Positions 1,094-38,836 of a DNA stretch of 40,178 nucleotides are shown here, piece by piece. Below the pieces are notes generated by a model. It ran no database searches. It was not told the origin of the DNA and saw nothing but the letters and a program-made list of their open reading frames with translations. Made by a program: the position numbers and the translations under genes. This DNA is from Tilletiaria anomala UBC 951 (Eukaryota > Basidiomycota > Exobasidiomycetes > Georgefischeriales > Tilletiariaceae): positions 1 through 40,178 of the forward strand of contig NW_013546889.1 of the NCBI RefSeq assembly GCF_000711695.1, read 5' to 3'. Within the stretch, counting starts at the first letter, position 1; each line of letters opens with the position of its first letter.

Positions 1094-1840
1094 TCAAGGC
1101 TTCGCGCTTTGTTCTTTGATCTGGATCCGAGTGTCACGGCCAAGGGCCACCGGCAGCGCAATGTCGGCCAGCTTGGTAATGGGCTGGTGCAAGATTGACT
1201 CGAGTTGCGAGTCGAGTAATATCTGGCGAAAGAGGGTATGAGGTTCGATGAAGATCCGTCGCTCGAGGCACGCGGCGCCAAACTCGAGCAGCGCATCGAC
1301 GTCGCGACGCTCGAGGATGTTAAGCAACGCCAGCACGCCAGCCACGCCACCATCTTTCCCTACACTACGCGCCCTGGCTGTAATCCCAGTTCCAACTCCA
1401 CCTGCACTGGCACGACCCCGCAAAGGGGTATCTTTGCAGTCGTTGGTGTACAGACAATAACGGCCGTAGCCGTGGCTTCCGTTGTCATTGTAGACAATGG
1501 CCGGCTCGTAAAGGCTGTTATTCAGTGCCGAGCTTGTGCAGCGCGAGGTCACCAGGCTGCTGCTGCTATTGCTGCTCTGGCTCCACATTCGGGGTGATGA
1601 CGAGCGAAACGACGTGCTACTGCTCGCCGAGCCGCTGTTCCAAGGTCCTGAGACTGACGCCGACATCGTTGCGCATTCGCAGCCCGTGCTGGGGCTCGAG
1701 ACGGGCCACGAAGGCTTTGATGACGTGCGCGCAGTTGGCGGCCTGTGTCCCACATGTCCCTGCTCCTGCGTCATCGTCGCTAACTCGGCACTGGAACCGC
1801 GTCGGCTGCTTCTGTTGCTCGAACACCACGTGTGTAGAGC
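1094..1840 (-). other. Disturbed 3' tail of NRPS-B
   Basis: In the long frame this stretch is at first serine-rich and unlike any NRPS domain. Between about 1617 and 1829 a neighbouring frame has strongly C/G-ending codons and a normal protein-like composition (segment AHVIKAFVARLEPQH), then meets a stop at 1617. Toward 1094 the original frame again looks like normal coding, ending in a leucine-rich segment (LADIALPVALG). An unrecognised intron, sequence error or real decay of the 3' end could each explain this. I see no consensus GTAAGT-type donor that resolves it. Confidence 0.55.
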
Positions 1841-4800
1841 CTCTCCCTCCAGAAACGTGGTCAGAATGTGTGCAAATCGGCTGAGAAAGCCAGCAACAAA
1901 CTGCACCGGTACCGTCTGCTCGTCAAAGTTAACGCACATCTCGAGGCGTCCGCGTCGCGCCGAGATGTTGAGCACGAGCGGCACGTCAAATGGATCGCTG
2001 CCGTCCCATGCCTCCAGCAGCTTGCTGTCCGACTTTGTCCTGTCATGCTTGTTGTCTTTGTCTTGGTCGAAATTGTCGTCATAATCTTGACCATGGCCAT
2101 TGTCGTCGTCTTCGTCGTCGTCAGAGTGGAGGTAGTTGCGGAAGTTGATGATGGCGTCAAATAGGTCCGTATGCTGGCGAGGCACAATGCCAGCACGTGC
2201 CAAGTCCTCGTAGGAGAGGTGTTCGTGTTGCGTGATGTTGGCTTGGGCCGCCTGAACCGTTCGGATCCACTCGATCATGTCCTGACCCTCGGCAGGCAGG
2301 AGCAGCTTACGCGGCACCAGGCTGATGCATGGTCCTACAACCCCCTCCAATCCCAACAGCTGGCCAGAGCGCCCCGCAAGCAGCTGTCCAATTGTAAGCT
2401 CGTTGTTGTTCACGTCAACCACGTCGGAGAGGGCTAGGGCAAAGCTCGAAACTACGGTGCTCGACAGATGGATCCCCTGCGTCTCAAGCCGCGCCATGGA
2501 CTGCACGTCAAACGTAATCACTCGTTCCAGCTCGGCCTTGCAGCAGGACCTCCTTGCAGCATAACCCGATCCCCAGACACGAACGTGCTGCTGCAACTTG
2601 CTCGGTCGCACGCCACCCAGCTCTCGTGTCCAGAATTCAAGCGCTTCGCTTCTCCTATCCTCGACCATTCTGACAAAGTCGCCAAACTCGGCCGGCCGAA
2701 ATGGCGGCATCGCGCAAAGCTCGGACGTCGATGTCGACGTCCAGGCAGCACTGCTATAGAGCTTGGAGAGCTCGGCCAGCTGCATTCGGACGGTCCATGC
2801 GTCGTCGAGTGCATGATGGATCGTCCAGAGTAGCATGTCGCCTCCACCGTCCGCAAAGCTAAGCAAACGAAAGTTGCAGAGCGGCTCGCTCGTCGTCCAT
2901 CGCTGAGAGGGGGCTCCATTGAGCGCATAGAGGAGCGCAGGCGAGTAAGCGTCAGCAGTTCCCGGCAGCTCGCGCTCCTCCCACTGCAGCTTGACATTGG
3001 CAAGCACTACCTGGAAGAGGCGGGCGCCGCCGTCCTCATCGCGTCCAAAGGCAAACACGGTGCGCAAAATGTCGTTGCGCTCGACGAGTTGTTCAAGAGC
3101 GGTGCGCAAGCGTGCACGATCAGTGTGCGGCGCAATCCGGTAGAGCTGCTGCACGTGGTAGCTGTCGGCAGCACCCACCATCGAGGCAAGTAACATGCGC
3201 TGCTGCGTTGATGTCGCCGGATAGCAAGCTTGCACGAGGCTGTCAGCAGCGGTGTTGGGGGCGTTGATGTCGTTGCTGCTCTGCAGCTCTCCCCGCTGGC
3301 TCTCGGCAAAGCTGCGAGCCACCTGGCTCCAAGACATCGGCATCTCAAGCTGGGTAGGCGGCATGGCCCGCGCCTCTACAGCCAAGTCGGCACCGATTCC
3401 TGTTCCAGACTGCCGGCTCGACAACAACTCGCACTGAGCCTCGATGGTGGCGTGTGCAGCAATGTCGGACACGCTCAGCCCAATGCCCAGTCGACGCAGA
3501 TGCGAGCTGAGTCGGATCGCCAGAATCGAGTCGCCTCCAAGAAAGCCAAACTCGACATTGGAGCTGATGCTCTTGCGATCCCGACCAAGCACGTGCGACC
3601 AGGCCTCCAGGACACTGGTCATCATTGGGCCCTTCGCCGATCTAGGGCCTTCTTTGTTCTTGTGGTTATCGTCGTCGGGGGTGCTCTTGCGTTGCGTCTG
3701 TGCGGTGCACCACGTCTCCAGGTGGCGTTGGTATACCTGATCGAGTTTGCGCTTGTCGAGCTTGCCGCTCGAGACCAAGGGTAGCTCAGCGAGCGCGATC
3801 CAAACTGTCGGCACCATGTAGCGAGGTAGCTCGGTCCGTGCTTGCACCGCGAGCTCCTGTAGTGCCTGCCGGCTGGACGACGTGTCGATCTCAATCTCCT
3901 GGGTGGTCGCGGGGCCTGTCTTCTTGATCTTGTTGGGCTCCTCCGATCGGCTGAAGCTGGGCTCGAAAACGACAAAGGCAACGAGCTCGTTACCCATCGC
4001 CTCGACGTCTACCGCGCAGATGGGCATCTGAGCCGAGGCTGAGCGCGTGAGTCCCACTTGAACCTCGCCGAGCTCGATGCGGAGGCCTTTGATGTTGACC
4101 TGGCAGTCCTTGCGGCGCAGGTACCGGAGTGCATTGAGCGCCGAGTCAAATACCACAAGGTCCCCACTCCGATAGGCCTTGGCTCCGTCCCGAAGCCTCA
4201 CAAATGCAGCAGCTGTGCGCTCGGGATCGCGAAAATACCCCTCGGCTATCTGGTCACCGCAAACCAGCAGCTCACCTGGGCAATCAAGCGCGCAGGGTTC
4301 GTTGTTGTCGTCCAGAACCAGGAGGCGCGAGGTGCCGAGGGCGTTCCCAATCAGCGAGGCGGGCATGTCAACAGTGAAGCGGTCCTGGGCACAACAGACA
4401 ACCGTGATCTCGGTGATGCCGTACGCATTGATCAAGCGCACGTGAGGCGCCCAGACGTTGCGAACGTCGTCGACCAGAGGCTCGCCCGACAGACACAGTA
4501 GATCGAGATGCCGAGCCTCGCTGGGCGTAAACAGCTTGGCCACCGTCGGCGTCGTCTGCAGCAACGTGACTCGCAGACAGCTCAGGGTGTCGCCCATCTC
4601 GGGAAGCATATCAGTCAGATCGCGCAGACAGAGGCACGCGCCAGACGCCAGCATGGTCAGGTCCCACACGCTCCAGTCAAACGAGAACTGCGAGAACTGC
4701 AGACACCGATGGGTCCACAGCGGCGCACCAAACGCGTTGCCACACTCTTGCTGTTGTCGCGTGCCATAAAGCGCCTGCTGCGCAGCGATGGATGCGGCCA

Positions 4801-7024
4801 CCGATCGATGCGAGACTTTGACGCCCTTGGGCGTGCCAGTTGAGCCGCTGGTAAAAAGCTGGTATGCGAGCCCGTCGAGCTCGGCGGTGCGGTCCAGGCA
4901 CGGCAGCTCAACAAAAGGGACGCCGTCGTCCGAGGACAAGGATACACACTCAAGAGATCCTTGGCCTTCGAGTTCGCGCACCCAAGCCTCGACGTTGATC
5001 ACTTCGACCTTGCGGCTGACCGACGAGTCGATGGTTCCGTTGGCGAGGAGGAGGTGCGAGTTGAGCTGATCGAGAATGCGATGGAGCCTGGCCTGAGGCT
5101 GACTCGGGTCGCAGGGTACGTAGGCGCACCTAAGCCAGAAGAGTGCAAGGATAAGGGCGACCGACGAGGCGCGTTTCTCGAGCGCCACCGGCACCAAGCT
5201 CCCGGGAGCTAGGGCTAGCTGGCGAGCGATACGCGCCCCAAGGCCAACTGAGATGCGATGCAGCTGCGAGTAGCTCCAAAACACGCCGTCGTACGTCTGG
5301 ATGGCCGCTTTGTGCGGCCAGGCACGGGCAATGCGCTCCACATGCCGGTGCAACGGCAGCAGCAGCGGAGGGGATAGCGACGGGTTTTCGCTGCTCGACT
5401 TGTGCATGGGGCCGGACAGGCCCAGCTGCGCCCGTGTGTCGTTCTCGGTGCGGATGTCGATCAAGCTGACCTGGTCGGTAGGGCTATGCTCCAGACGGTG
5501 CGCCAATTGCTGCAGCGCCTGGTAGGTTTGTCCCACAAATGACTCGGCGTGTGCACGAGCAAGATAGGCCGGGTCGTAGCTGAAATGTATGACGTAGCCT
5601 CCAGCGTCGAGCTGCACCTCGATCGAGACAGGGTAGGTGACGCTCATTTCGGCATCGAGAGGCTCGAGCTGCCAACCAACACGGTGGCCGCCGGCGTTGC
5701 CATCGCCATCACCGTTGCCGTTGGCGTCAAAGTTTTGAAACGCGAGGAGAACGTTGAATAGCGGGCTTCCGGGCCCAAGGCGTGCAGCAGCCTGGATGGC
5801 GTTAAGACCAACGTGCTCGTACTGGAGGGCCTCGAGAGAGCGCGAGTCGGCGTCGCGGATCAGCTGCTCGACAGAGGTATGGGATAGCGATAAGCGGAGA
5901 GGCAGTGTAGCTATGCAAGGACCGACGATGGCTTCGATTTGGGCCAGGGGAGCCGCGCGACCGGAGCTAGTGTAGCCCAGGACCACATCGTTGGAGCCCG
6001 AGCGGCGGGCGAGCACACATGCGAGGGCTGCTTTGAAGACCGACGCTGGGGTGACGCCAAACTTGGCGGCAGCTCGGGCGATTCCCGGATCAGCAAATCT
6101 GCGGCTTACCGTCTGCGATGCTTTGGCCGTCGCTTGCGCGCCGTTTGATCCGGTGTTCTGACAATCGAGCGGACGCGGCCATGCCGCAGGTTCCAGCTCG
6201 GCCAGCGCCCGTGACCAGTAGCTGCTCGCCGAGCTCAGCAGCTCGGGATCAAGACAATGGCCAACAAAGTCAGCAAAGGGTGTTGTTTCGGCCCGCCAAC
6301 CGTTGTCATTGTGATTACGTGGGTCTTCGCCTTCGTCATCATCGTTGATGTCGTTGTTGAAGCAATACAGTTGCTCCAGATCCCGGAGGAGCAGGTTCAT
6401 GGACCAGCCGTCATACAAGGCGTGATGGATAACTAGCGCAAAAACGGCGTCAGGCGAAGCAGGAGAGGATCGGAACAGTCCGGCCGAGAGCCAGAGCGCT
6501 GGCGTTGTGAACCACTCCCTGCGGCCCTCACCCCTGCGGTTGCCCTCAGCCTGGGGGTTGGCAGCCGCCTTTTGGGCAATGTGTGACGATCTTTGGCTCA
6601 TATAAATGTGCGCGTCTTGGACCGGGTCGGCCGAGGTCTCCTGCGTCTGCCAGGTGATGTTCTCCAATGCGATCGCCGGGTCAAGGACGACCTGGACGAT
6701 GCCGTCGGCGTGCGAGCTCGACTGGACAAAGGCCGTACGCAGGATCTCGTGCTTGGCGACGAGGCAGCGCCAAGCGCGCTCGAGGCGCGCGCTGTCAAGC
6801 GACCCGCCCCCGCTGCCCCCGTCGCCATCGCGCATCTTGATGCGGAAGAGTAAACGCGAGAGGTAGGGCATGTCTCCGCTGTGCTCCGAGTCAAGCTCTC
6901 GCAGCGTCAGCGCCACCAGGCCCGCCTGCATGGGCGCCAGCGGATACGCATCCACCACGGCCTCATCATCCAGCCCAGCAGCCCGCAATTCGAGCTCAAA
7001 AGCATCTTGGTCAAAATCGGCCAT
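1094..7024 (-). CDS. Non-ribosomal peptide synthetase NRPS-B (C-A-T-C)
   Basis: Single-exon frame of 1976 codons, transcribed toward the telomere; the ATG at 7024 has A at -3 and G at +4. Domains: a condensation domain at about residues 20-480 with IHHALYDGW near 199; an adenylation domain at about 560-1090 with FTSGSTGTPKG near 725, NAYGITE near 866 and SSGKLDK near 1088; a carrier domain with FLGGDS near 1163; and a second condensation domain at about 1265-1725 with IHHALDDAW near 1402. By-eye pocket residues of the adenylation domain are D,W,W,Q,C,S,A,V,V,K; I assign no substrate. There is no thioesterase or reductase. The terminal condensation domain may release the peptide, as fungal terminal C domains are known to do. 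An acidic loop (about residues 1630-1660) interrupts that domain. After residue 1725 the frame becomes serine-rich and coding-like sequence appears in another frame, so the true 3' end is uncertain. It probably accepts the chain from NRPS-A. Confidence 0.9.
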   Translation of the reverse strand: MADFDQDAFELELRAAGLDDEAVVDAYPLAPMQAGLVALTLRELDSEHSGDMPYLSRLLFRIKMRDGDGGSGGGSLDSARLERAWRCLVAKHEILRTAFVQSSSHADGIVQVVLDPAIALENITWQTQETSADPVQDAHIYMSQRSSHIAQKAAANPQAEGNRRGEGRREWFTTPALWLSAGLFRSSPASPDAVFALVIHHALYDGWSMNLLLRDLEQLYCFNNDINDDDEGEDPRNHNDNGWRAETTPFADFVGHCLDPELLSSASSYWSRALAELEPAAWPRPLDCQNTGSNGAQATAKASQTVSRRFADPGIARAAAKFGVTPASVFKAALACVLARRSGSNDVVLGYTSSGRAAPLAQIEAIVGPCIATLPLRLSLSHTSVEQLIRDADSRSLEALQYEHVGLNAIQAAARLGPGSPLFNVLLAFQNFDANGNGDGDGNAGGHRVGWQLEPLDAEMSVTYPVSIEVQLDAGGYVIHFSYDPAYLARAHAESFVGQTYQALQQLAHRLEHSPTDQVSLIDIRTENDTRAQLGLSGPMHKSSSENPSLSPPLLLPLHRHVERIARAWPHKAAIQTYDGVFWSYSQLHRISVGLGARIARQLALAPGSLVPVALEKRASSVALILALFWLRCAYVPCDPSQPQARLHRILDQLNSHLLLANGTIDSSVSRKVEVINVEAWVRELEGQGSLECVSLSSDDGVPFVELPCLDRTAELDGLAYQLFTSGSTGTPKGVKVSHRSVAASIAAQQALYGTRQQQECGNAFGAPLWTHRCLQFSQFSFDWSVWDLTMLASGACLCLRDLTDMLPEMGDTLSCLRVTLLQTTPTVAKLFTPSEARHLDLLCLSGEPLVDDVRNVWAPHVRLINAYGITEITVVCCAQDRFTVDMPASLIGNALGTSRLLVLDDNNEPCALDCPGELLVCGDQIAEGYFRDPERTAAAFVRLRDGAKAYRSGDLVVFDSALNALRYLRRKDCQVNIKGLRIELGEVQVGLTRSASAQMPICAVDVEAMGNELVAFVVFEPSFSRSEEPNKIKKTGPATTQEIEIDTSSSRQALQELAVQARTELPRYMVPTVWIALAELPLVSSGKLDKRKLDQVYQRHLETWCTAQTQRKSTPDDDNHKNKEGPRSAKGPMMTSVLEAWSHVLGRDRKSISSNVEFGFLGGDSILAIRLSSHLRRLGIGLSVSDIAAHATIEAQCELLSSRQSGTGIGADLAVEARAMPPTQLEMPMSWSQVARSFAESQRGELQSSNDINAPNTAADSLVQACYPATSTQQRMLLASMVGAADSYHVQQLYRIAPHTDRARLRTALEQLVERNDILRTVFAFGRDEDGGARLFQVVLANVKLQWEERELPGTADAYSPALLYALNGAPSQRWTTSEPLCNFRLLSFADGGGDMLLWTIHHALDDAWTVRMQLAELSKLYSSAAWTSTSTSELCAMPPFRPAEFGDFVRMVEDRRSEALEFWTRELGGVRPSKLQQHVRVWGSGYAARRSCCKAELERVITFDVQSMARLETQGIHLSSTVVSSFALALSDVVDVNNNELTIGQLLAGRSGQLLGLEGVVGPCISLVPRKLLLPAEGQDMIEWIRTVQAAQANITQHEHLSYEDLARAGIVPRQHTDLFDAIINFRNYLHSDDDEDDDNGHGQDYDDNFDQDKDNKHDRTKSDSKLLEAWDGSDPFDVPLVLNISARRGRLEMCVNFDEQTVPVQFVAGFLSRFAHILTTFLEGEALHTWCSSNRSSRRGSSAELATMTQEQGHVGHRPPTARTSSKPSWPVSSPSTGCECATMSASVSGPWNSGSASSSTSFRSSSPRMWSQSSNSSSSLVTSRCTSSALNNSLYEPAIVYNDNGSHGYGRYCLYTNDCKDTPLRGRASAGGVGTGITARARSVGKDGGVAGVLALLNILERRDVDALLEFGAACLERRIFIEPHTLFRQILLDSQLESILHQPITKLADIALPVALGRDTRIQIKEQSAKP

Positions 7025-7974
7025 CTTGACGGTTGAGTAACAAAGTAAAGTGTCTCAACGCCAAGTGTGAGTGCGGTCGTTGGTGGAGTCAATGGCAAGT
7101 AGGATAAGAAGGAACTAGAGCAACACGGTTTGGCAGAGGAGTAGCAGGCGAGGCGAGGCGTTGTCAATGTGCGAAAGTCCGAGGGACAGTCTACGTGCGG
7201 GGGCGGCGATGCCACCGACATGGGCTCAGCTTTTCTAGTCGATCGAATGGCTGGCTGGCGGTTGGAGACCGCAGCAGCAGCGAAGGGTGCAGAGCTCGAG
7301 AGTAACTCTCGAGCACAGGAAGGCCGCCGGTGTAGAGGGGGGGATGCTGACGCAGGGTCAACCAGTTTGGGCGGCGACGGATTGTGAAAGAGGCACCGAC
7401 AGTTGAAACTCGCATCGTAGTGAAGGGGGTACCATCTTAGTAAGTGAGCGAGGCAGTATGGTGCAAGGCCTGTCGCGCCCCTGTTGTCTTTGTGGCGGGC
7501 TTGTTCCTCGACGAACAACCAACACACATGCGCAGCGCTTCCTCATTATCTTCTTCGCCAATCTTGGTCGATTGCTCACTACCTCACTCACTCACACACC
7601 CAATTTACTCACTCACCAGTTTAGTAAGTACGTAATAGAACTTGACAAACCCAAGTTCACCTGCCTCTCATCGGTCGCAACAACCCTCATAGACCTACAT
7701 GCTGTACACGCCACGGCAGCGCGTGCTGGTGTGGCGGATCGTTGCATAAACCTTTGCACAGTGGTCGGTAGTCCATGATGAAACCATTTGCAGAAGGCCT
7801 CGTTCGGTGGTGCTCGTCTGCATCTGCATGTATCTGGAATTGCACTAGTCTACTGTACAGTCATGTGGCTACTCAATTGCTTGGATGATTCGCTGACCTC
7901 AATTGGCCCAGGATCTCATGTGTTTGTGTTTGTGTGTGCACACAGCCGTGCGACCGTTGTTGCGCCGACTCAGC
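7025..7974. promoter_or_regulatory. Intergenic region: NRPS-B promoter and ABC transporter 3' flank
   Basis: This 950-bp gap holds the upstream region of NRPS-B and the 3' flank of the ABC transporter; both genes lie on the minus strand. CTCA/CACA repeats at about 7573-7620 are of a type common in fungal upstream regions. An AGATAA site on the NRPS-B sense strand (TTATCT at 7546-7551) fits the GATA-factor consensus. A 10-bp palindrome ACTGTACAGT lies at 7852-7861. Frames in this interval have poor codon bias and I call no gene. Confidence 0.5.
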
Positions 7975-10900
7975 CTAGCTCGTTGCATGCTTTTGGCCGT
8001 CGCTGGTCGCAGGTGCCCGAGCGTCCTTTTGGTGTTCACGCGCCTGCAAGAGACGAGAGAGGAGGCCGCTCTGGTTGCCCAGCAACTCGTTGGGCGTGCC
8101 AAACTCGCCAATATGGCCGCGCTCCATGACGAGCACGTGATCAAATTCGTAAACACTGTCGAGGCGATGCACGACCGAGACCACAGTGAGCCTCCGCGCA
8201 AAGACGCGGCGGATCAGCTGCTGGACGCGCTCGTTGGTGCTCGCATCGAGCGACGAGTTGATCTCGTCGAGCAACAGCACCTCGGCGCGCGCGTTAGTCC
8301 TTGCCAGCACCAGCGCCCGCGCCAGCGCAAAGAGCTGCAGCTGACCCGGAGACAGCCATGCTGAATCGCTGTCAAATACCGTGTCTAGCCCCCGTGCGAG
8401 ACCCAGCACCGTCGATCGCAGCCCGACCTCATCAAGCGCCTCCAGTAGTAGCTCGTCGGTGTCGCCGCCGCCATTACTATTGCCCGAGCAGCGCCCCTCG
8501 ACATCAAGGTTCTGGCGTAAAGTCCGCCCTTGGATGATCAACGGATCCTGTGGAACCACAATGATCCGCGAGCGCACCTCTCGGAGCGCCAAGCTCTCGG
8601 CGTCACAGCCGTCAAGCAGCATCCTTCCGGCAGTACGGCCTAACAGACGCCCAATGGCAAGTAACAGCGTTGACTTGCCAGAGCCGGAGCGGCCGCAGAC
8701 ACCGGTATATGTACCCCTCGGCAGATCCAGGCGCTCGAGATAAAGGTCCGGCGCGCGCACAGTCTCGGGCGCATTCTCGCTGCTCTCCTTCCCTTGCTGG
8801 TCGCGCTGCTGCTCCTCGTCATACCACGCCGAGAAGCGCTGGAAGCTGATGGCAGCAGCTGTCGACGTCTCGTGCCTGTGGTCGTTGGGGCTAGCATTGC
8901 TGTTCCGAGCACTACCGAGACCGTGCTGCGTCTGCGTCTTGTCATCCTCCTGGCGCGTTTGAATGATCTCGGTGACACGCTCAATGGCTACAGCAGCGAT
9001 CTCGGCCTCCGTCCAGGATATGAGGCAGTTGTTGATCTGCTGTGAGATCTGCGTAGTCTGTGTGAGCGAGACGCCGACCAGCGCCACCATGCGCGTGCGG
9101 CGCAAGCCCACGCACAAAAGTATGAGCGAGACGTTGATGACGAGTGTGACCAGGTTGAGCCACGTCTGCAGCCAGCGGCGCACAGCATACACATGGTAGT
9201 AAGGCCTTTGCGAGCGCTCCACACAGGCATCCGCGTAGGCGAGCATCGCCTCTTGCACGCTAAAGGCACGCAGGATGGCGCCGCCGCCTAGGATATCGGA
9301 GGCGGCACCGTAGAGCGGGCTCTTAGACGCGATCTCAAGACGCCGCAGTTGCCGTGAGCTTGGAATGTAGAGCTTCCGCAACGCAACGCTCAGCAACACG
9401 AGCGCCGCAATTATAATCGCCAGGAATGGCGCAGAGGCAGTCATTAGGGCAAGGCTGCCAAGCAGAGTCAAAAGGTTCGAAGAAAAGTTGGACGCCTGCA
9501 CTGGCCAATCCCAATCAATCAGAAACAGGTCCTGCGAGAAGCGATTGAGAAGCCGGCCGGCGGGGTGGTCCTGGAAGAAAGAGAGTGGCGCACCAAAGAG
9601 TGCGCGCGCCTCGTCCGCATGCACCGCAAGGCTCGCGCGCGGCACGACCCAGAGCAGCCAGAGATAGAAGAAACCGACGAAGGCGAGCGCGGTGGCCATG
9701 TTGATGGCGCTGAATCCAACTATCCAGGCGCCAAAAGCTTGGCCAGGATGCACCTCGTTGGTGTGTGCCCACTTCTCGAGCACCACCTGCGCACCGACGC
9801 CGAAAGCGGCGACACCCACGTTGAGCGTCAAGACAAGTGCGATCGGGCCGTAGCCAGCTCGCTCCACCCACACCTTGTACGTCGGCCAGCCAATGGAGCT
9901 CTCAGCGACCTGCTCGAGCTCGGGGTCCTGTGCGCAGCTCTGTGTCGCTTTCTGGTCGCTTTTATCGACTGCCACTGCTGGGGCAGGCTTTTCGCTGCTT
10001 GGCCTGCGAACAGATCCCTGCGCCAGCTGAACTGCTTCAGTGTGAGCCTGAACCTCGGCTTCGGCCTCTGCCTCTGAGTCCGCCTTGCCCAAGGCTTCGT
10101 CGAGCTCAGACGCCCTGCTTCCTCGGTCTGCGTCCGGCAGCAGTGCAGGGCGAGCGTCGCAGCGGATGACGTTACCGCTAAAATCAAGCTCAATGTGCAG
10201 AGCTGAGCGAGAGATGATGCGGCTTGAGTTGGTCACCAGCACGACTGTCTTGGAGCACAACAGGCCTTTGACGGGCGCAAAGAGTGCATCGAATACATGG
10301 CGCTCGACGCGCGCGTCGAGCGCGCTGAAGGCGTCGTCGAGTAACACCACGGGCGCCGATCGCGATGCGTAGAGCGCCCGGGCAATGGCCACGCGCTGTC
10401 TCTGTCCGCCAGAGAGCGCCTTGGCAGGATGGCGATCGCCATCGTCCCAGCGCTCAAGATCGTGATCGAGCGCAACGGCCTCGAGCACGACGCGGTACCA
10501 GCTCGGATCCATGGCGCGGAACAGAAGGATGTTGTCGCGCACCGAACGAGACTCTTGCACCCAGCACGCCTGATTGACAAAGGGGATCGTCGCAAGTCGG
10601 TGTCGTGGCCAGTCGGCACCAAAGATGCCTTTAGCAAGCGGCAGCTCGCCGAGGAGCGCGAGCATGAGGCTCGACTTGCCGCAGTTGACCGGCCCAGAGA
10701 CAGTCGATAGCCGGCCGGCGGGAAAAGAGAGTGTCAAATCGGTGAAGACTACCCGCTGGGCTCCGCCGCCTGTCGGCCAGGCAATCGAGGCCGAGACAAG
10801 GTCGATCTGCGGGGCGGCCGGGAGCAGTGATATGAGCGACATCGAGGCTGTGGAGGGGGTATCGCTCTCCGGCTGCACGGTGGACGGCGGCAGCTCGAGG

Positions 10901-12804: not shown

Positions 12805-13761
12805 GATGGCCGCCAGGAGCGCACGCAGCAGCCAAAGTGCGGGTCAATGATGGAGGTGATGGGAAGGGAGCGGAGCAGTAGTTTCGAGAGCAGGAGGACT
12901 AGGACGGCGGCGGAAGCATCTCTATGCAGCAGCCAAGCGCCTGCTTGCATCTTTAACTCAACCTGTACACAGTTGTAGGGACCACCTCGAGCCTGAGCCT
13001 GAGCTTGCCGAAAGGTTGTGTGTGATAAGAGCATTGAGTAGATGAAAGGGAGAGTATACTGGAGCAGAGTTGAGCAGAGCGCACAGATTAGAGAGCAGAG
13101 CCAAGGAGTTACACAGTGCATGCCCTTGGCGCTACGCCAACCGGGGACTTCGAGGGCGCATTCACTAAAATAGTGCAGACCGGCCTTCAACACCAACACT
13201 ACACTATGCATTATGAAAACCAGAAGGGCAAGAGGCCAAGGCGACGTCGCAGAACTTCCCTGTCGCAATGGCAATGGCAATCGCGCATTGCTACAACGAG
13301 CAATCAATGGATGGCGACCCTAGAAACGGGTCCATTGCCACTTGCGGTGTTCACTGATTGTACTGGGCTTGCGCAGCGCTATGACGTGTGGCGACTTGGG
13401 TCCGCCCCATTTAAGTGAGACAACTGCATGCTGATTTTAACGCTAGCGTTTAGGGTTTGGACTCCGACCCTCCGACGCCTTCGCCTACGTAGGAGAGAGC
13501 GACGCGTCTCGCTTGGATGCGCGTGATATCTGACTTTCCCCATTTCACACGCTGCCTTTGTCTAATTGGCAACTTCCCGTCGGTTGAGGCGCGCGTGTCA
13601 TGTGCAGGGCACACGAACGGAAAAGAGACGCTAATACAGTCTAACAGCGATTCATCTTCCCTCCCTCCGTCCCGCAACTCCGGTTCCGGTCATGCTGCGC
13701 CACATACAGATGATGTGCAGCAGCGCATTGCAATGGAGGCATGGTTGGTCTACATACAGGT
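12805..13761. promoter_or_regulatory. Intergenic region: ABC transporter promoter and regulator 3' flank
   Basis: This is the upstream region of the ABC transporter. It contains TGATAA at 13023-13028 (GATA-factor type), the palindrome AGTATACT at 13053-13060, also found in the NRPS-A promoter, and a perfect 12-bp palindrome AACGCTAGCGTT at 13439-13450. No frame in it has convincing coding character. Confidence 0.5.
13053..13060. promoter_or_regulatory. AGTATACT palindrome in the ABC transporter promoter
   Basis: This 8-bp palindrome is identical to the core of the 16-bp palindrome in the NRPS-A promoter and lies about 250 bp upstream of the transporter start. I found no copy in the NRPS-B promoter. 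Confidence 0.3.
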
Positions 13762-15097: not shown

Positions 15098-15571
15098 GCA
15101 AGCAAGAATGTTCCCGCCTTTAATTTCAGCACGATTATACTGTTGTTTTTTCACGGCGCTATCTTTAAGGCTGCTTCTGAGAAAAGAACTCCCGCGTTCT
15201 GCGCTGCTACAGCGCAGAGGGTATGCAATGCAGCAGCTTGCCTTCCTTCCTACAGCTCGGGTTCAGCTCAATTCCGATTTCGTCAAGGTCACTCGTTGGG
15301 TGCTTAGCGATGTCCACATATTTTCACACTGCTATAGGTTTCCATATTCAACTCGCCCGGTTGTCACCGACCCACGGTGCCGGGTTTCTATCTGGTGTGC
15401 TCACGTGCAGATTGCAGAGCGGAGCAGTGTAGCCTAGACCAGCTAAGAGGAAGTCATAAAAGGGAATGGCTACAGGCGCCGGCTTATTTACTTGCGTGCT
15501 CGAGGCACGGATGGAGATTAGCGGACATGATGGATAAGTGAGCGATGCGATATGATGTGCTGTGGATGGAA
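15098..15571. promoter_or_regulatory. Intergenic region upstream of the zinc-finger regulator
   Basis: About 470 bp between the regulator start and the stop of the small two-exon gene, both on the minus strand. The part near 15125-15175 is AT-rich. I see no coding frame, no copy of the AGTATACT core and no other strong site. Part may be the regulator's 5' leader. Confidence 0.45.
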
Positions 15572-16148: not shown

Positions 16149-16379
16149 GCTTGCTGGAAAGCCAATGAATGGCAGATTGATCTGAGACGAGTTTGCCAGT
16201 CGTTGCCAAAAGAAATTGCAGACCGATTCCTGCTGCTCCTCTCACCGCCATCCGTGTGCTGTGTCCCTTTTAACCCTTTCGAAGCCGTCAGGACCACCGC
16301 AAAGCCACTGAACGAACGAAGCAAGGAACGAATGGGCGGCGCCGGAGTAGCGGTGCTTGCAGCAATGGCAGTAGTACTT

Positions 16380-16860
16380 AAACTCAAAGTAGAATACGAA
16401 CAATGAAATATAAAATATGTGAATACAAGCAGCAATATTCTTGAAAGGTCTAAATAGGTAGTTTGTCTTTGTTTTTCTCTGAAATCGCGCAGTCTTAGCT
16501 TCAGGTTTTTACATATTTCGATGTGTTCAATTGTCGTTTTAGATTTGTTTGTTTCGTATTGTATACAGCTTTTTAAAATTGTGCGGACGATTGATGACTT
16601 CAATTCTGAACAAAAACATTATGTTTATTAGTATTAGTTTAGCAAAGAACGTTTCAGACAGCATTCTCACGATGCACTACATAACCCAAAACAAACACAT
16701 ATGGATATTCTTTCTTTGCTAGTAAACTCTCTACCATTTTTAGAAAGGTACTTGAACGATGGTTTCATGTTTGAAAAATTTTGAAATGTAAAACATCTTA
16801 TTTATCACTACCATTACCTGTTTGGTAGCAGAAGAAGATCTAACAAACATATATTGCATT
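16380..16860. other. AT-rich island
   Basis: Hand counts of three 60-base lines (from 16441, 16501 and 16741) give 63%, 72% and 73% A+T, against GC-rich coding DNA on both sides. No terminal repeats, transposase or reverse-transcriptase motifs are visible. It may be promoter DNA, or a decayed insertion too old to name. Confidence 0.6.
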
Positions 16861-29900: not shown

Positions 29901-32900
29901 CAGGGTGGCCGGCAGATGCACTGACCAGCTTTGCTACCTTCCGCAACCTCCCAGGTGACGACGGCCGGACTGCCAGCGACTCGCTCGTGGAGCTTGAGGA
30001 GCTGGCCGAGGACAACGAGCAGGTCCCCGTCTCGGTGGCTGCAGGCGCTGGCACAGAGAGGCACTGGCTGGAGCTCAACTACAACTCGACTATGTTTGAC
30101 GCGCAGGAGGCTAAAGCACTGGCCAACGACACCTGCTCCATCTGGAAAAAGCTCCTGACCAAAGGCGGCCATAAGGACGTTGATGCGCTCATTGGTTTCG
30201 TCCAGCCAGTGCCACGCGCACCGGCGGCTGTTGCAGATCTGCACAGGCAATTCGACGGCATCGGCAGCCAATCCCCGGTCTCTGCTGCGGCGGGGACTGA
30301 GCCTAAGCCAGAGTTCAAGCTCTCCACAGAGCTTGGTGCGCAATTGGAGCAGAAATCAGCAACCACGGGCCTGAGGGAGCAGCTTGAGCGCATATGGTGC
30401 GATGTACTTGCGATTCCGGAACAGCGTTGTCCACACGACGTTCCTTTCTCCGAACTCGGAGGCAGCTCGCTCGCTTCGATGCGTCTGATTTCTGCTATGC
30501 GTAACGCTGGCATTAAGGCCAATGTGTCGGATCTCCTCCAGGCTAACACCATCTCGTGCCTGGCCACTAGGCTGCTCGGCAAAGCGCGCCAGCAAGACAA
30601 TGCAACACACGCTTCAACGAGTAAGATCAAACCGGGATTCACAGTGGTGTCGCGACAGGCTGAGGCAGACACTGCTGTGCTCGACTCCGCTTCCTGTCAA
30701 GAACCGGCTTCAGCGGCAGAAGACTCGCCGCCTGCTGACGCTGAGGCGTTCTCCACGTTCGAATGCACACCCGTCCAGCTGGCAGTTCTCAGTGCCGCGT
30801 CCGTTCACGACGATACTATCCAAACAATAACAGATGACAGCGACAGTGCCTCACCACTGCGCTCAACGCCGTACTGTGCCGAACTCACCTTCAGTGTCAG
30901 GAGCGACATCGACCCTGTGCGGCTGAAGAGGGCCTTCCATTGCCTGGTTGACAGCCACGACATCCTTCGGACGGCCTTTGTTGCCAGCGAAGGCGACAAA
31001 GAGGGGGGGGCAAGCTTTCGAGCGATTTGCTACCCGCCTGGATCGCCTCGAATTCCCAGTCTTGAGCTCGACACCACAACTTCGGCCCACCAGGATCCTC
31101 TACCCACGGCCACCGGCACGGTGGCCTGGAAGGCCGCGCTACAAGGAAGAAAGCTGGTGTGGCATATCTCACATGCCCTCTACGACGGTGCGACCCTCGA
31201 CATCTTCCTACGAGACCTTGACATTCTCTACACGCAGCTCGGCCTGCCTCATGCCGTCGGCGTCGCGGACCTCGGTGTGTCTAGACACAGCTATGCCAAG
31301 TTCGCCAAGGTTGCCAACCGGTGGGCCGACGACCAGGCCGCGGCTTCGTTCTGGTCGCAACGCCTTGCCGGTGCCTCCCTAACGCAGCTGTGGCCATCTG
31401 TGGCAGACAACGTGCCCTGTGCCACAAACCAGATCGAAATCGACTCTGAGGGAAGCCTCGAGACGGCAGCAAGTCGACTTGGCTGCCTGCCGGGTGCCCT
31501 TGTCCGCGCTGCCGTGGGCCTGCTCCTCTGCCAGCTCCATGAAACGGACCATGTCGTCTTTGACTGGGTCTCGTCCGGTCGGTCCGTGCCTGGCTTTGAT
31601 GAGACAGCCGGCCCCATGGTGGCGACCTATCCCGCGAATGTGACCATCAACCGCCAGGAGGACGACGCAGCAGAGACGATTCAGCAGATAGCTACCCGGA
31701 TTCAAGAGGAACTCATCCAAGAGATGCAGCACGAGCATTTCGGCATGAACCGCATCCTCCGAGCAGCAAAGCTCTCGGGGCAGCGCAGCCAGCTTTTGGT
31801 CACCTATCAAGCCCCCGCCGTACGTCGGCCGAAGGAACGCATCGTAGAATTCGAAAGAGGCTCTATGACGCTCGACTATGTTGTTTCGCTTGAGGTCCAA
31901 GATCGGACCGCCCTCGTGGGTCGCCCCTCGTTCCGTACCACGACGGTTTACGACGCCCAAGTCCTGTCACGCGGCGATGCCATCTCCTTGACCCAGCAGC
32001 TTGGCTATTTACTCGGCGCACTCAGCAAAGCTGCACCACTCGACACTGCCAGCTCCCCAAGCGCTCGCCTGCTGAGCCTCTCGATGGGCCCCACCGAGCT
32101 GGAGACAGCGCACGGGCTGTGCTCCGCAGATGCTCGACTGAGTGGGTCCTGGCCGCTCCTCCACGATCTCGTCATCCAGCAGAGCGTGGCGACACCTCGA
32201 AAAGTGGCGCTGCAGTTTAACGACGAGTTCGTCACCTACGCCCAGCTCGTGTTGAGAGCGCAATGGGTGGCAGACCACATCGTGGCAGCATTCGGCAAAG
32301 ATCGCCGCTCTGGCCGCCAACCTTGCATAGGAGTTAGTATGTCCCGCGGCATCGACATGGTCCTGGCTCTACTCGGGGTCCTCATGGCGGGGGCCGCGTA
32401 TGTACCCCTCGATCCGGACCTGCCCCATACACGATACCAGTTGGCGATCCGGGCGACCGGCGCCAAGCTAGTACTTGCCTCGCAGGACATTGTCTCGGCC
32501 AATGTCTCCCACGTAGACGCATCTGACGTCGAGTTTGTAACGTTGTCCGAGCTCGCCAAGAGAGCCAACCAACAGCAGCAGCTCCGAGAAAGACCCGACT
32601 CCATCACAGCCGTCGTCCAGCCCAACGATCTTGCATACGTGATCCCTACCTCGGGCTCGACAGGCACGCCCAAGGCCTGTGCAATCGAACACCGCAACGT
32701 TTCAGCGTTCCTCACGGCGGCGACGCGCTTCTACGGGCTGACGGCCTTCAGTCGCAAGCTGCAGGCGGCCAACTTTACCTTTGACGTGAGCGTGTTCGAC
32801 ATCTGGGGTACACTCTCTGTTGGTGGCTGCGTCATCCTGGCACCCAGGGGGGAGCTCTTTGGCGACATGGCTGGCGTCATCAACAAGACCTCCGCCACGT

Positions 32901-35900
32901 TCCTCGATCTCACTCCCACGCTCGCGTCTTTGCTCAGCCCTAGCAGCTTGCCCACTGTCTCCTCCATCCTCTTTGGCGGCGAGGCGCTCCCACGCAAGAT
33001 CCTCAAAACCTGGATATCGGAGCCCGGTGTCGCCGTCTTCAACGCTTCGGCGCCCACCGAGTGTGTTGTCAATGCCCTGGCACATCGATTCAACCGCTCC
33101 TCGGCCCATCTGCCGTACATCCCCATCGGCCGGGCACTCGGCCATTCCAGAATCTACCTTCTGGACAATCAGATGCGGCCCGTGCGATTAGGCCAAGTTG
33201 GCGAGATCTACATTGGCGGGCCGCAGGTCGGTCGCGGATACCTGGGTGACGAAGAAAAGACACGACAATCGTTCCTGCGGGACGTCACGATTAAGATAGG
33301 CAGAATCACGTTCCACGAGGAGCGCCTGTTCCGCTCTGGCGACACTGCCAAGCTGCACGGAGAGGGACTCGTTGAGCATCTCGGCAGACGAGACCACCAG
33401 GTCAAGCTCAAGGGACTCAGGATCGAGTTAGGCGACATCGAATCGCAGCTCTCGAGCTTGCCTGGCGTCCGACTGGCGGCCGTCCAGAAGGCTGTGGCGC
33501 CGGGCGGCGGCGGTATATTGTCCAAGGAGACCCTCATCGGCTTCGTCGAGCTCCAAGCTGCTCATGATGGGGGCCAAGCGGACGCTACAACCTCAGAAGC
33601 CCGGGTTCCCCTTGTCGAGCGTCTGCTTGCTGATCTGCAGCTACGTCTGCCGTCGTACATGGTCCCTGAGTCCATCGAGCTGGTACCGAACCTGCCTCTC
33701 ACGCCTTCGGGCAAGGTGGACCGGAAAGACCTCAAGAGGCTGGCCGATGCACTGCTCGCCAAGGCAGGTGCCAACAGGACCGACGCGATGAGGAGCGACA
33801 CCACCGCCCCCGAGGACGAAATTGAAGCCAAACTTGTCGAGCTGAGCGCCAAGATCCTCGGACACGCTGCCAAGCACGTCTCAACAACAGCGGGCTGGTC
33901 GCACCTCGGCGGCGACTCGATTGCTAGCATCCAGCTCATCTCTGCGTGTCGCAAGGCGTTTGGCACCCGTCTGGCGTTTGGAAGCGTCCTCCGATCGACG
34001 ACGCTGCGACAGGTGGCAGCCATGGTCCGACGCTCCACCAAAGCGACAACGGGCGCACAGAATGCCGATGCTGCATCGAGCTTGGAGCGCTCCGACTCTT
34101 CCAGGGCACTGTGCGTGCCTCTGACCCCTTTGCAACGGCGGTTCGTGCATCTCTTTGGAGCTGAAGGAGAGAGCGGGTTGGAACACTACTCTCAGTCTCA
34201 CCTGATCTCCCTCCGCGGCCGTGCAAGCTCCTGGACGCGCGAGGAGCTTGAAATGATGCTGCGCAACATCGAGGATCGGCATGCCGCGCTCTCGTGCACC
34301 CTTACGCCGCACGGCATGTCACAGGGCCTGCGGCCCCGCAGGCGCCTCACACTGCACCAGGAAGCGATAGCAACTTGCAAAGATCTCGGAGTCGTTTGCT
34401 CGGCCACCATCCACCGGGTCTCGCTCGCCGAGTCGCGCCTGTTTGAGGCGACACTGATCGAAGTGGGCGCAGGCAGCCAGAAGTTCGTAATGCTTACGGC
34501 ACACCACTTTGTTGTCGACATCGTCAGCTGGCAGATCATCCTGGGCGATCTTGCAAGCCAGCTTTCCAGCGGTCCAGCGATTTCTGCACTTGGACAGGCA
34601 ACCGACACGTTCCTCTCGTGGAGCCAGGACCATGACAAGCATCCGGGGCACATCACGAAGGTGTCAATACAGCCTCTGGAGCAGCTCAGCACCAGCAGCA
34701 GTTCAGCTCTGGCCCAAAGAGGCGGCGTTGTCTCTAACAGTCAAGAAGTCAAGCTCGACGTCGCATGGTTCTGTGCCAGTCGCGAGATTGACCTGGAGCA
34801 TCTGATGGTTGCGGCCCTCACTTGCTCGTTGCGAGACACAGCCACCTGCCGCATGAGCTGCACAGCGTCGTCGAGCGTGACCCTGGCCGTGGAAAGCCAC
34901 GGCAGGGAGCCGTGGCTGCAAGTTCAGGACGTGACCCGGACCGTCGGTTGGCTCTCGGCCTTCTACGCAGCAAGTTTGGACCTCTCGGCGATCGAAGACC
35001 CGATTACGGCCCTGGTGAGCGCCAAAGACGCTCTGTGCGTCGCCAAGCGCCGTGGCTACTGCCTGCCTGATGGTGAAGCTCTTTGGCCTGTTGTCATGAA
35101 CTACCATGGTCGTCGAGCTGCGTCGTTGGCAGCAGACTCAACTGTGTTTAACGATGTAGACCTCCCGACTCGCGAGGGGGGCCACGGTCTGGTGCGCGAC
35201 GCCATCATCAACGTTGAGATCGAGCTCTCCGCCGATGGCCGCAAACTCGATTGGACGGTCGAGGGGCCAGCCTGTCTCAACACTAAGGTCTCAGCGGTCT
35301 CTATGGGCATTAAGGCGGCTCTGAATACCATCATCATGCACGTTGCTCCCAGCAATCGACCATCGCGTCTTGGCCTGACGCTGGTCGACATCTCGGTGGA
35401 ACTGGATGCGCCGGCTTATGATGAGCTGCGCAAAGGTATCATTCCAAGCCTTGGCCTCGTGCCCTGGCAGCTCGAGCGCGTGACCGGATGCACACCACTG
35501 CAGACAGCACTTGTTGCGGCGGGAGATGGATCCGATCGCTATCGCAGCCATCGCGAGTACCAGGTGTCTGCCTCGCGCAATGTCACTTCGGCAGCGCTCG
35601 CTCGGGCTTGGAAGGCTGTGGTGCGCAGCACCGACGTGCTTCGCAGCCGATTTGCATATCATTCTACTCTCGGGCTGATGTGCCTGGTGCTTGCACCAAG
35701 TGAAGAGGCGTCAGTGTTCATCTCGCGGGATGCCACTGAGTACCAGGCGTGGCTGACCTTTCAGGGCGACCCGGGCCGGTCGCCTGTCGCTGCAGCGATC
35801 CTTGAGGACGAGTCGGGTATAGTGCAGAAGCTCTGCCTAGCAATCCACCACGCCGCCACCGACGCTTGGACCAACAACCTGATTGAGCAGGACCTGGTCA

Positions 35901-38836
35901 ATGCGTGCCACGCGGGGCCCGAAATGCTCTCGCCTTCGCCGAGCTTCCAGGCTGTGCTCGACTGGTACAAGAAGCAGGACCCCGCACAGAGCTGCGCATT
36001 CTGGACCGACTACCTTTCTGGCATGCCTGAGAGCCCGTGGCCTGTTGCAACCATCGAAGCGCGGCAGGCGTTGGTGGCTTCGTCGCCGCCCGTCTTTGAA
36101 CGCGCCTGGTCACGCACACCAGGCTGTGTATCGGCAGCGCTCGAGCGCATGGCGCAGCAGTTTGGAGTACTCGCCTCGGATCTGCTGCAGTTGACATGGG
36201 CCGTGTGCCTGCATCGCCGCTCGTTGCAGGACGTTGGTGCCGCACCTGCCGACGTCTGCTTTGGCATTGTGCTTTCAGGGCGAGACGTTGCCGTGGACAA
36301 CATTGAGGAGATCCGCGGACCGTGCATCCAGACGGTGGTCGCACGCTACACCTTTGAGCATACCGAGAGGGTGCACGACGTGCTTAAGCGCATGCAGAAC
36401 ATGCAGGACAGGGCCAAGACCCACGCCTGGGTCGGACTCGACGGAATCCTCAGGGCTACGCCAGCTGGCTCCATCCACGACCTCGTGCGCACGCTGGTCA
36501 CGTACCGCAACCTTCCAGGAGACAGCGACAAGGACGACAATATCAAGGGCGTGGCCAGAATGTTGCGTCAGGTAGACAGTGATGACCGCATCACCATCCC
36601 AATCTCAGTGACGGCCTATCCGGCCGGCGCTGGTGCCGACGCCGTCGAGTTTGACCTCCTCTACGATACAATGGCTGTGGCGCCTTGCGACGCGGTGTGT
36701 CTTGCCGACGAGCTGGCGCACACGTTCGTCGAGCTGATGAGAGCGCTCGAGTCTGGCAACAGCTTTGCCTCGGTCGAGCCACTTCCCGAGAAACAGATGG
36801 AGCTGGTGCAAAACAGCTGCACGAGCCGAGCCGATGCTACACTAGCGCCAGCCACAGACCTCGTATCTTTGCTGCTCGCCCAGACGCAACGGTACCCGAG
36901 CAAGATCTGCATCCAGCAGCGCGACACGTTCCTCACCTACCGCGACGTCGAACGCAAGAGCGAGCAGCTGGCGCGTCGCATCCGCAGGTACGGTCTGCCG
37001 CTCAACAGCATGGTCCCGCTCCGGTTCCACAAGGACCATCGCCTGCTGCTTGCCATCCTTGGCGTGCTGAGGGCTGGCCATGCTTACGTGCCCATCGATC
37101 CTGAGCTGCCCGAGCAGCGTCAGAACTTTCTCATTCAGCAGGTACAGGCGCGACTCGTGGTGCAGGACCAAGCATCGCATCCTGCGTTGCCACCCCTTGA
37201 CAAACTTCCATGCACCGTAGCCACCTTTGAAGCGCTCATGGGGGAAGCCGAAGCCGAGCAGTCAGCGGTGCACGACGAGGACGACGACCACGACTACGCC
37301 GCGTCGTTGCCTGTCCCATCTTTCGACGATGCGTGCTACGTAATCTACACCTCGGGCTCGACGGGAACGCCCAAGGGTTGCGTGGTCAAGCATGGCAACG
37401 TGGCGCAGTACTGCACAAGTTATGCATCTGCCAACGCGGTACCCTCGGACTGGACAGACCGCACGCTTACTATCAGTAACACGAGCTTCGACGCCTCGAT
37501 CTGCGAGTACTTTGTCTCTCTCGTAACGGGTGCCACGGTATGCTTTGCGACCAAAGATCAGATTCTCTCCGACCTGCTGGGCCAAGTCAACCATCTGCGC
37601 ATCACCACGGGCTTCATGACTCCTTCGCTCTGCCGCACCGCCGATTTTGCGGGTCAGGCGCCAACGCTCAAGCGCTGGTCGCTGGGCGGCGAGATGGTGC
37701 CAAGGGACCTTGTCGAGGCCCTGTCCAAGGGTGGCATCGAGGTCTACACCGGATACGGTCCAACCGAGACGACCGTCATGGTGGTCACAGGACGGCTTGA
37801 CACGGGCAATGTGGCTGGCTTCCTGCCGCTTGGACGACCCAACCCGGGCACCTTCCTGCGCATCGTCGATGGCTTTGGCCGCACGTGCCCCGCCGGAGCT
37901 ACGGGCGAGCTCATGATTGGTGGAGGCCAGGTTTCGGCTGGCTACCTGGACATCGAATCCGACAGCTTCTTCACGGACAAGAACGGAGTGCGGTGGTACC
38001 GGACCGGCGACTACGCCTGCCTGCACGGCGACGGCCGGATCCAGATACTGGGGCGCCGCGACGCGCAGATCAAGCTCCGGGGTCAGCGCATCGACCTGGG
38101 AGAGGTGGAGGCGGCCGCCACGTCGCTCGACGACGTCGCCGAAGCGGCTGTCGAGCTTGTGGGCGACACACTAGTGGGCGGTTTCTGCCCTGCGACCGGG
38201 CGCCACGCGCGAGAATGTACCCACGAGCTCAAGCACAATCTGGTGCAGCGGTGCCAGGAACGTGTGCCGCCGTTTGCGGTGCCCGAGCACTGGGTGGCAC
38301 TGGAGAGACTGCCGCGGACGCAGAACGACAAGCTGGATCGCAACGCGCTGCGCAAGTGGCTGGATGCTGCCATCAAGGCAGCGGCGCAGCGCCAAGAGGA
38401 GAAGAAGAGGACGACGACGACGGACGAGGCACCGCGGACCGAGCACGAGGAGCGCATTGCGCAGGCGTGGGCGCGAGCTCTGGGGATCGAGGCCGAGAGC
38501 ATCGGACTCGACGACAACTTTACAGCGCTCGGTGGCGATTCGATCAAGGCGGTGCGCGCGGCGACGTATCTGCGTGCCACGGCACCGAGCGACACCAGCA
38601 GCAGCGGCACCGTCAGCGTTGCAGCCATGCTGAGATGCCGCACCGTGCGAGCCTATGCCGTCGAGCTGGCGCGCGCCACCCGAGAGCACATCGCAGCGGC
38701 TGCGTCGCTCGTCAACGCCCACCCTGGCTCGGACTCTAGCCCCTCCATAACAGTGCTCAAGCCGGCCCGAACATCTTCACGAAGGATGCAGCGATTTGGA
38801 CTGCTGTCGCAGACGCGCAAGCCAATGATTGGCTGA
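17967..38836 (+). CDS. Giant non-ribosomal peptide synthetase NRPS-A (5 A, 6 T, 5 C, 2 E)
   Basis: Three exons (17967-21617, 21786-22861, 22951-38836) encode 6870 residues. The ATG at 17997 has a better context (A at -3, G at +4) and may be the true start. Approximate residues: N-terminal extension 1-200 (unrecognised); A1 205-695, T1 762 (AGADS); C1 845-1285; A2 1290-1800, T2 1874; C2 1975-2385; A3 2400-2930, T3 3022; E1 3080-3525; C3 3560-3980; T4 4078 (LGGSS); C4 4180-4605; A4 4645-5165, T5 5228; E2 5297-5720; C5 5750-6175; A5 6214-6705; T6 6769; then a 100-residue tail. There is no release domain at the C-terminus. Beginning with A and lacking an N-terminal C domain marks it as the starting synthetase. 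It probably makes a cytosolic, carrier-bound peptide of five residues, or six if T4 is charged in trans or by a neighbouring A domain, with two D-residues, then passes it to NRPS-B. Repeated A-T-C units recall ferrichrome synthetases, but two epimerisation domains and five A domains do not fit that family. Confidence 0.93.
18560..20390 (+). other. NRPS-A loading module: A1-T1
   Basis: A1 has VYTSGTTSVPKG, LLFDVSICDVFG, QLTPTVASL, NGYGPSE, YYTGDLA, NGLRIQVEEIE and PTGKVDG, so all main adenylation motifs are present. By-eye pocket residues aligned to GrsA-Phe are D,V,C,Q,I,S,G,V,V,K; no substrate assigned. T1 carries AGADSIG instead of LGGDS, with the phosphopantetheine serine kept. Confidence 0.8.
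21618..21785 (+). other. Intron 1 of NRPS-A
   Basis: 168 nt, donor GTAAGTG and acceptor CACAG, phase 0. It lies in the last third of C1 and joins FDLHF to DTTLVTESEAV, the usual run-in to the final helices of a C domain. Read-through gives a stop at about 21705. Confidence 0.9.
22862..22950 (+). other. Intron 2 of NRPS-A
   Basis: 89 nt, donor GTATGTC and acceptor CAACAG. It splits a glycine codon inside core motif A5 of A2; splicing rebuilds NSYGPTETTVD exactly, which fixes both sites. Confidence 0.95.
24120..28810 (+). other. NRPS-A module 3: C2-A3-T3-E1
   Basis: C2 has IHHALYDGWT near residue 2091. A3 has LFTSGTTGTPKG, FDVSCHDIFG, QLTPSVAQI, NSNGPTEATVD and SSGKVDK, with the same by-eye pocket as A2; a CAG-rich stretch codes a glutamine run near 25850. 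T3 has AGGDSIQ. E1 is an epimerisation domain: TAHHLVVDLVSWN near 3217, LEGHGRD and VGWFTNI. It should invert the residue loaded by A3. Confidence 0.85.
28840..30590 (+). other. NRPS-A module 4: C3-T4, no adenylation domain
   Basis: C3 has IHHALVDAWT near residue 3697 and follows E1, the place for a condensation domain that takes a D-residue donor. Only about 100 residues separate its end from T4 (ELGGSSLAS), too few for an A domain. T4 keeps the serine but has S for D just before it. Either T4 is loaded from elsewhere or the unit is skipped. Confidence 0.8.
30740..35390 (+). other. NRPS-A module 5: C4-A4-T5-E2
   Basis: C4 has ISHALYDGAT near residue 4315; the first His is Ser, while the second, catalytic His is kept. 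A4 has IPTSGSTGTPKA, FTFDVSVFDIWG, DLTPTLASL, NASAPTECVVN and PSGKVDRK; pocket by eye D,V,F,D,L,G,A,V,N,K. T5 has LGGDSIAS. E2 has TAHHFVVDIVSWQ near 5427, VESHGRE, RTVGWLSAFY and VMNYHG. Confidence 0.85.
35400..38690 (+). other. NRPS-A module 6: C5-A5-T6, ends on a carrier
   Basis: C5 has IHHAATDAWT near residue 5874. A5 has IYTSGSTGTPKG, FDASICEYF, TGYGPTETTVM, YRTGDYA and QNDKLDRN; pocket by eye D,A,C,F,S,G,G,V,M,K. T6 has ALGGDSIKA near 6769. The remaining 100 residues are Ser/Arg-rich with no catalytic motif, so the chain must leave T6 by another protein, most likely NRPS-B. Confidence 0.85.

Follow-up and report, generated by a model that had tools for sequence, protein, structure and literature searches.

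Two Complementary Synthetases in One Locus

The stretch of DNA analyzed here (the window), positions 1 to 40,178 of contig NW_013546889.1 of Tilletiaria anomala UBC 951, encodes two multidomain nonribosomal peptide synthetases (NRPSs), designated NRPS-A and NRPS-B, on opposite strands. We consider it fairly likely, judging from their domains, that the two form a single peptide assembly line split over NRPS-A and then NRPS-B; the locus itself is real and probably functional. A first-pass annotation of the window had proposed, for the correctly delimited interval 1094-38836, such a two-protein line with an initiating adenylation-carrier pair and a terminal condensation domain. This remains the best fit to the domain types, and the joint action of the two proteins is what we infer from that fit.

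The NRPS-A gene was assembled from three stop-to-stop frames joined via two GT-AG introns of 168 and 89 nt. The second of these starts with GTATGT, contains a CTGAC branch-like motif and ends with CAG, and splicing it restores the adenylation core motif A5 as NSYGPTETTV. The Pfam families Condensation, AMP-binding, and PP-binding scored above their cut-offs in both proteins, the strongest AMP-binding match reaching 5.8e-130 (two domains together); weak but accepted cases were T1 (23.3 bits, cut-off 20.8) and E2, matched as Condensation (40.2, cut-off 30.6). With adenylation (A), condensation (C), epimerization (E), and carrier (T) domains numbered along the proposed line, the order in NRPS-A is A1-T1-C1-A2-T2-C2-A3-T3-E1-C3-T4-C4-A4-T5-E2-C5-A5-T6 and that in NRPS-B is C6-A6-T7-C7. 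The Pfam matches and the spliced domain order bear out the annotated start of NRPS-A on A-T and its end on a bare carrier, and the open reading frame and Pfam matches of NRPS-B likewise agree with the C domains annotated at both of its ends; the six A domains counted across the pair divide into five in NRPS-A and one in NRPS-B. The C3-T4 unit inside NRPS-A, which has no A domain, was absent from that annotation. The domain limits listed below were placed manually, with motifs and Pfam matches as guides, and are approximate.

17967-38836, + strand: NRPS-A gene, 6870 aa, introns 21618-21785 and 22862-22950; ATG at 17997 as alternative start
18618-20126, + strand: A1, initiating adenylation domain, code DVCQISGVVK
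20154-20411, + strand: T1, AGADSI
20499-21944, + strand: C1, spans intron 1
22122-23668, + strand: A2, spans intron 2, code DVHQISSVDK
23711-23968, + strand: T2
24071-25423, + strand: C2
25631-27133, + strand: A3, code DVHQISSVDK, identical to that of A2
27146-27448, + strand: T3
27476-28783, + strand: E1, epimerization domain
28886-30253, + strand: C3, post-E condensation domain, HHALVDAW
30317-30559, + strand: T4, carrier without its own A domain, LGGSSL (serine kept), PP-binding 1.3e-13
30701-32053, + strand: C4, motif SHALYDGAT
32171-33748, + strand: A4, code DVFDLGAVNK
33770-34033, + strand: T5
34061-35398, + strand: E2, epimerization domain
35456-36793, + strand: C5, post-E condensation domain, HHAATDAW
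36836-38368, + strand: A5, code DACFSGGVMK
38396-38668, + strand: T6, final domain of NRPS-A
1094-7024, - strand: NRPS-B gene, ATG at 7024, last ~240 codons of uncertain frame
5615-6967, - strand: C6, first domain of NRPS-B, motif HHALYDGW
3725-5347, - strand: A6, code DWWQCSAVVK
3410-3637, - strand: T7, LGGDSI
1820-3241, - strand: C7, terminal condensation domain, HHALDDAW, grouped with C3 and C5

In the line that we propose, A1-T1 of NRPS-A would load the first residue, C1 and C2 would add residues 2 and 3, and E1 would convert residue 3 to the D form. T4 of the C3-T4 unit would either be loaded in trans, contributing one extra residue, or be bypassed. The A4 residue would then be added and converted to D by E2, with the next residue coming from A5; the chain bound to T6 would cross to C6 of NRPS-B, A6 would provide the last residue onto T7, and C7 would release the product, most likely through ring closure. 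The peptide expected from such a line would have six (or seven) residues, two of them D.

Condensation Domain Types and Module Order

To relate the C and E domains to one another, we used an unrooted tree of the nine such domains in the window (seven C, two E). C3 and C5, each of which directly follows an E domain, are sisters with a local support of 0.955, and C7 joins them with a local support of 0.913. C6 lies outside this group, as expected, since the preceding T6 has no E domain. With NRPS-A placed before NRPS-B, two members of the post-E group come directly behind E1 and E2, and the third closes the line. In fungi, the CT-DCL subtype is reported to follow 78.38% of E domains, and such post-E domains can also be terminal, as in HC-toxin synthetase (PMC10212144). 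By their sequences C3 and C5 appear to constitute a distinct post-E subtype, any name for which is given by resemblance only.

In the core motif termed C3/E2 (a motif, distinct from the domains so numbered here), all seven C domains and both E domains conserve the Asp and the second His. C3, C5, and C7 share DA in place of DG within this motif, and C4 has SH in place of HH; the C4 sequence SHALYDGAT fits SHXXXDXX(T/S), the motif given for LCL-A, a subtype restricted to fungi (PMC10212144). Comparison with the Protein Data Bank (PDB), which covered C2, C5, C6, and C7, divided these domains in two: for C5 and C7, McyB was the top match and the fungal TqaA was weak (22 and 23 bits), and for C2 and C6, PvdL was the top match and TqaA reached 36 and 63 bits. 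The domain types thus read favor NRPS-A before NRPS-B, with a terminal C domain that would release the product.

The Two Ends of the Line

Both ends of the proposed line were searched for domains or their remnants. In the 215-residue leader before A1, a C-domain remnant was not above shuffles (31 of the 149 scoring shuffles, out of 200, reached the score of the leader), and an A-domain model gave -4.9 bits against 6.8 for the best shuffle; the predicted structure of this leader, at a predicted local distance difference test (pLDDT) score of 39, was of no use. At the other end, a model derived from all seven T domains of the window found no further one beyond C7, the best score being 0.6 bits over 332 distinct candidate tail translations (longer than 15 aa, from a limited set of donor motifs and with introns of 45-400 nt), a search that had no positive control. 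The unspliced tail of NRPS-B matched no Pfam family, a C-domain remnant in it was again not above shuffles (56 of the 135 scoring shuffles, out of 200, reached its score), and the A-domain model found no match there. With neither a C or A remnant detected in the leader nor a C, A, or T domain in the tail, the line would start with A-T and end with C. The predicted structure of C7 (pLDDT 65) has a C-domain fold; a Foldseek search with this model did not separate the subtypes, as E chains scored along with ordinary and terminal C chains.

The same observations bear on the reverse order, in which NRPS-B would come first and C6-A6-T7-C7 would pass its chain to A1-T1, the break between proteins falling inside a C-A-T module. 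C7 and A1-T1 would indeed make up one complete module of this kind, and the lack of any C domain or remnant found ahead of A1 is in keeping with it. Such a line, however, would end on the bare T6 without a release domain and start with an unexplained C6, and it would place C7, a member of the post-E group, behind T7, which has no E domain. It would also forgo the domain that most often ends multimodular fungal NRPSs, which is a C domain (PMC2823734). We regard this order as quite unlikely and retain NRPS-A followed by NRPS-B.

Adenylation, Carrier, and Epimerization Domains

All six A domains conserve the equivalents of Asp235 and Lys517 (PheA numbering). Identities among the A domains of the window range between 26% and 36%. 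A2 and A3 have an identical ten-residue code although they are only 35% identical, and they therefore probably load the same residue. The structure of SidN (3ite), presumably a fungal siderophore A domain, was a low match for A4, standing 60th among the matches listed (the best 60 of 80), and ranked 41st of 219 PDB matches for A5. It should be noted that substrate prediction from ten-residue codes is reported to perform poorly for fungi (PMC10212144).

The carrier motif is GGDSI in five of the seven T domains, AGADSI in T1, and GGSSL in T4. Both E domains carry HHxxVDxVSW plus an E(G/S)HGR motif and form a clade with a local support of 1.000 in the tree of C and E domains. Each matched 10 distinct PDB sequences, five of which are titled as E-containing (four PvdL, one TycB3); the other five, from TycA, GrsA, and bacitracin synthase 3, we take to be E-containing as well. 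In PvdL the stretches matched by E1 and E2 precede those matched by C7, and the same holds for E1 in bacitracin synthase 3. Read by eye, the fungal E6 motif of PMC10212144 was not clear in either E1 or E2.

A Telomeric Locus with a Transporter and a Probable Regulator

Besides the two NRPS genes, the window has a telomere and two further genes, which lie between NRPS-B and NRPS-A:

1-94, no strand: telomere repeat, (TAACCC) x 15.7, left chromosome end (Tandem Repeats Finder, 100% matches)
7975-12804, - strand: ABC transporter of the ABCC group (MRP/YCF1 type), with two membrane regions and two ATPase regions (Pfam)
13900-14971, - strand: probable regulator with a C2H2 zinc finger (14278-14210), starting from the ATG at 14971; 13900 is the limit of the reading and not a settled 3' end

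As the window opens on the telomere array, which the first-pass annotation of the line did not include, NRPS-B ends some 1 kb short of the chromosome end, a position that would suit recent gain, loss, or silencing. An exporter and a regulator had been annotated between the NRPSs. The exporter is firm: all 43 distinct PDB sequences matched by the transporter at E<=1e-80 are ABCC, MRP, SUR, or YCF1 entries. The regulator is the weaker of the two; the Cys/His spacing of its finger fits the C2H2 consensus. In the proposed system, the transporter would export the peptide and the C2H2 protein would turn the genes on.

A coding-potential profile of the intervals 6900-8000, 12600-18100, and 38600-40150 gave no strong additional gene; the sole flagged block outside the known genes, at 15930-16049, falls in a frame (15884-16618) that matched no Pfam family. 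No tailoring enzymes were seen among the scanned open reading frames of the window, and Rfam and tRNA searches of the window returned no matches. Within the ~3 kb separating the zinc-finger gene from NRPS-A there is an AT-rich stretch (16380-16949, GC 0.29-0.41), and to the right of NRPS-A the interval 39700-40150 is noncoding and contains divergent repeats in which TTTGTC and GACAAA are frequent.

This layout also leaves room for two independent synthetases that share only their subtelomeric neighborhood, with NRPS-A releasing its chain by an unspecified route or in trans and NRPS-B making a small product of its own. The start codons of NRPS-A (+) and NRPS-B (-) are ~11 kb apart on opposite strands, and chromosome ends often gather unrelated metabolite genes. 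Taken alone, however, NRPS-A has no release domain and NRPS-B has no initiating A-T, and each protein fills the gap left by the other; independence of the two is in our estimation unlikely, and a joint line from NRPS-A to NRPS-B is preferred.

Observations Weighing against a Functional Joint Line

Several observations count against the joint line or against its activity. In the tree, C2 lies next to the group of C3, C5, and C7 (0.852) without following an E domain, the pairing of C1 with C4 is unsupported (0.125), and the branches are deep, identities among the seven C domains being 19-28%; C7 itself follows an E-less module, yet its nearest relatives in the window follow E domains. Core motifs are altered in four A domains, namely SGTTS in motif A3 of domain A1, NASAPTE in motif A5 of domain A4, NDKLD in motif A10 of domain A5, and RRKDCQV in motif A8 of domain A6, so that some of the A domains may be inactive. 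The zinc finger of the regulator matched zf-C2H2 at E=0.012, below the Pfam cut-off. Finally, in the coding-frame profile the tail of NRPS-B (1094 to ~1870, - strand) has a weak coding signal that shifts frame and back; these shifts may be introns or decay.

The altered A motifs, and the frame changes and weak signal at 1094-1870, ~1 kb from the telomere, would also be expected of a decaying cluster whose line is broken or no longer expressed, NRPS-B having lost its 3' end at the telomere. Against this stand the long open frames of NRPS-A (~6870 codons, spliced), NRPS-B (~1740), and the transporter (~1600), which are alike in GC content at third codon positions (0.705, 0.720 as far as the end of C7, and 0.715, respectively), and the intact second His and Asp noted above for every C and E domain. 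We consider decay very unlikely, and an intact line running from NRPS-A to NRPS-B continues to be the preferred reading.

Origin of the Locus

The telomere, the introns, and the C4 motif point to a fungus. A recent transfer from bacteria was considered and set aside. A4 matched 931 plasmid records, all below 60% identity and the best among those listed (5 of 931) at 35.9%; as the nearest listed plasmid A domains are no closer to A4 than the A domains of the window are to one another, nothing here points to a recent bacterial source. A scan of genome contigs with six peptides from E2-C5-A5-T6, a weak test, gave 128 pattern stretches and one relative at 28% identity. Scans of IMG/VR for the transporter and for A6-C7, with six peptides each, found no relatives.

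Comparison with Ferrichrome Synthetases and Other Fungal Systems

The annotated contrast with ferrichrome synthetases, the NRPS type best known from smuts, is upheld. Like the window pair, the ferrichrome synthetases Sid2 and Fer3 are multidomain NRPSs in which carriers outnumber A domains. In their InterPro domain lists, the homologues from S. scitamineum have three A domains and no E domain (PMC4246466), whereas the window pair has six A domains, five of them in NRPS-A alone and thus more than the three at most expected of a ferrichrome synthetase, and two E domains. Terminal T-C repeats are also absent, NRPS-A ending C-A-T and NRPS-B ending A-T-C, once. For CT-A domains behind XGXDSL carriers (PMC10212144), the comparison covered the carrier half, and the window's mostly GGDSI carriers, with AGADSI and GGSSL, differ from it. 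Judged by its domains, the locus is not a ferrichrome synthetase.

In S. scitamineum, 26 NRPS genes were predicted, two of which are described as siderophore synthetases with three A domains each (PMC4246466), and wheat bunts are reported to have a single NRPS cluster with three modules, ferrichrome-like, plus NRPS-like ones (PMC9172201). Ten NRPS cluster families appear in a network that combines MIBiG with 16 Ustilaginaceae, and only Fer3 and Sid2 among them are described in its available portions (PMC13208730). Further surveys give counts, with no account of this architecture in their available portions (PMC8951962, PMC5897528, PMC6194002, PMC7870139), one of them reporting an NRPS-indole-polyketide synthase hybrid cluster in U. 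trichophora (PMC5897528); for basidiomycetes, ferrichromes and involutin are named in a review of 2020 (PMC7725599).

There is a close likeness to the HC-toxin synthetase type, or 'EAS' group of Bushley and Turgeon, with which the window shares several modules, E domains followed by a distinct C subtype (C3 and C5, 0.955), and a C-terminal C domain (C7, whose place in one line with NRPS-A we infer) (PMC10212144, PMC2823734). The difference is that the line proposed here comprises two proteins plus an internal A-less C-T unit. In the 38-genome study of 2010, the EAS subfamily is reported only from euascomycetes (PMC2823734). By its domains the plan appears to be that of fungal multimodular NRPSs with E domains and a terminal C domain, in a form split over two multidomain proteins that is rarely described in fungi.

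A single synthetase is reported to be behind most fungal NRPS products, and as of 2019 the ergopeptines were given as the only fungal two-NRPS line known besides fusaoctaxin (PMC6563249). As in the window, the fusaoctaxin cluster combines two NRPS genes, NRPS9 and NRPS5, with an ABC transporter, and there the two enzymes make one product (PMC6563249). However, NRPS9 (A-T) only starts the fusaoctaxin chain, and in the ergopeptines the partner enzyme delivers the first amino acid, whereas NRPS-B, with C-A-T-C, probably finishes the chain. Some coprogen-type clusters are described with an additional A-domain NRPS gene (PMC10212144).

The architecture of the window was not found described in the titles and openings of abstracts listed by literature searches, and it may already appear in supplementary tables. 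It is possible, if doubtful, that a smut-lineage basidiomycete here carries a telomeric, E-containing, ascomycete-style cyclic-peptide synthetase, with two docking multidomain proteins and an A-less C-T relay, and that this would be the first such line in Basidiomycota and its peptide class new for smuts. A line that passes a near-finished chain between giant proteins raises the question of docking in fungal synthetases. Smuts are a lineage whose characterized nonribosomal peptides, according to the surveys cited above, are ferrichromes; should the host be one of them, the locus would add multimodular synthetases with E domains to that lineage.

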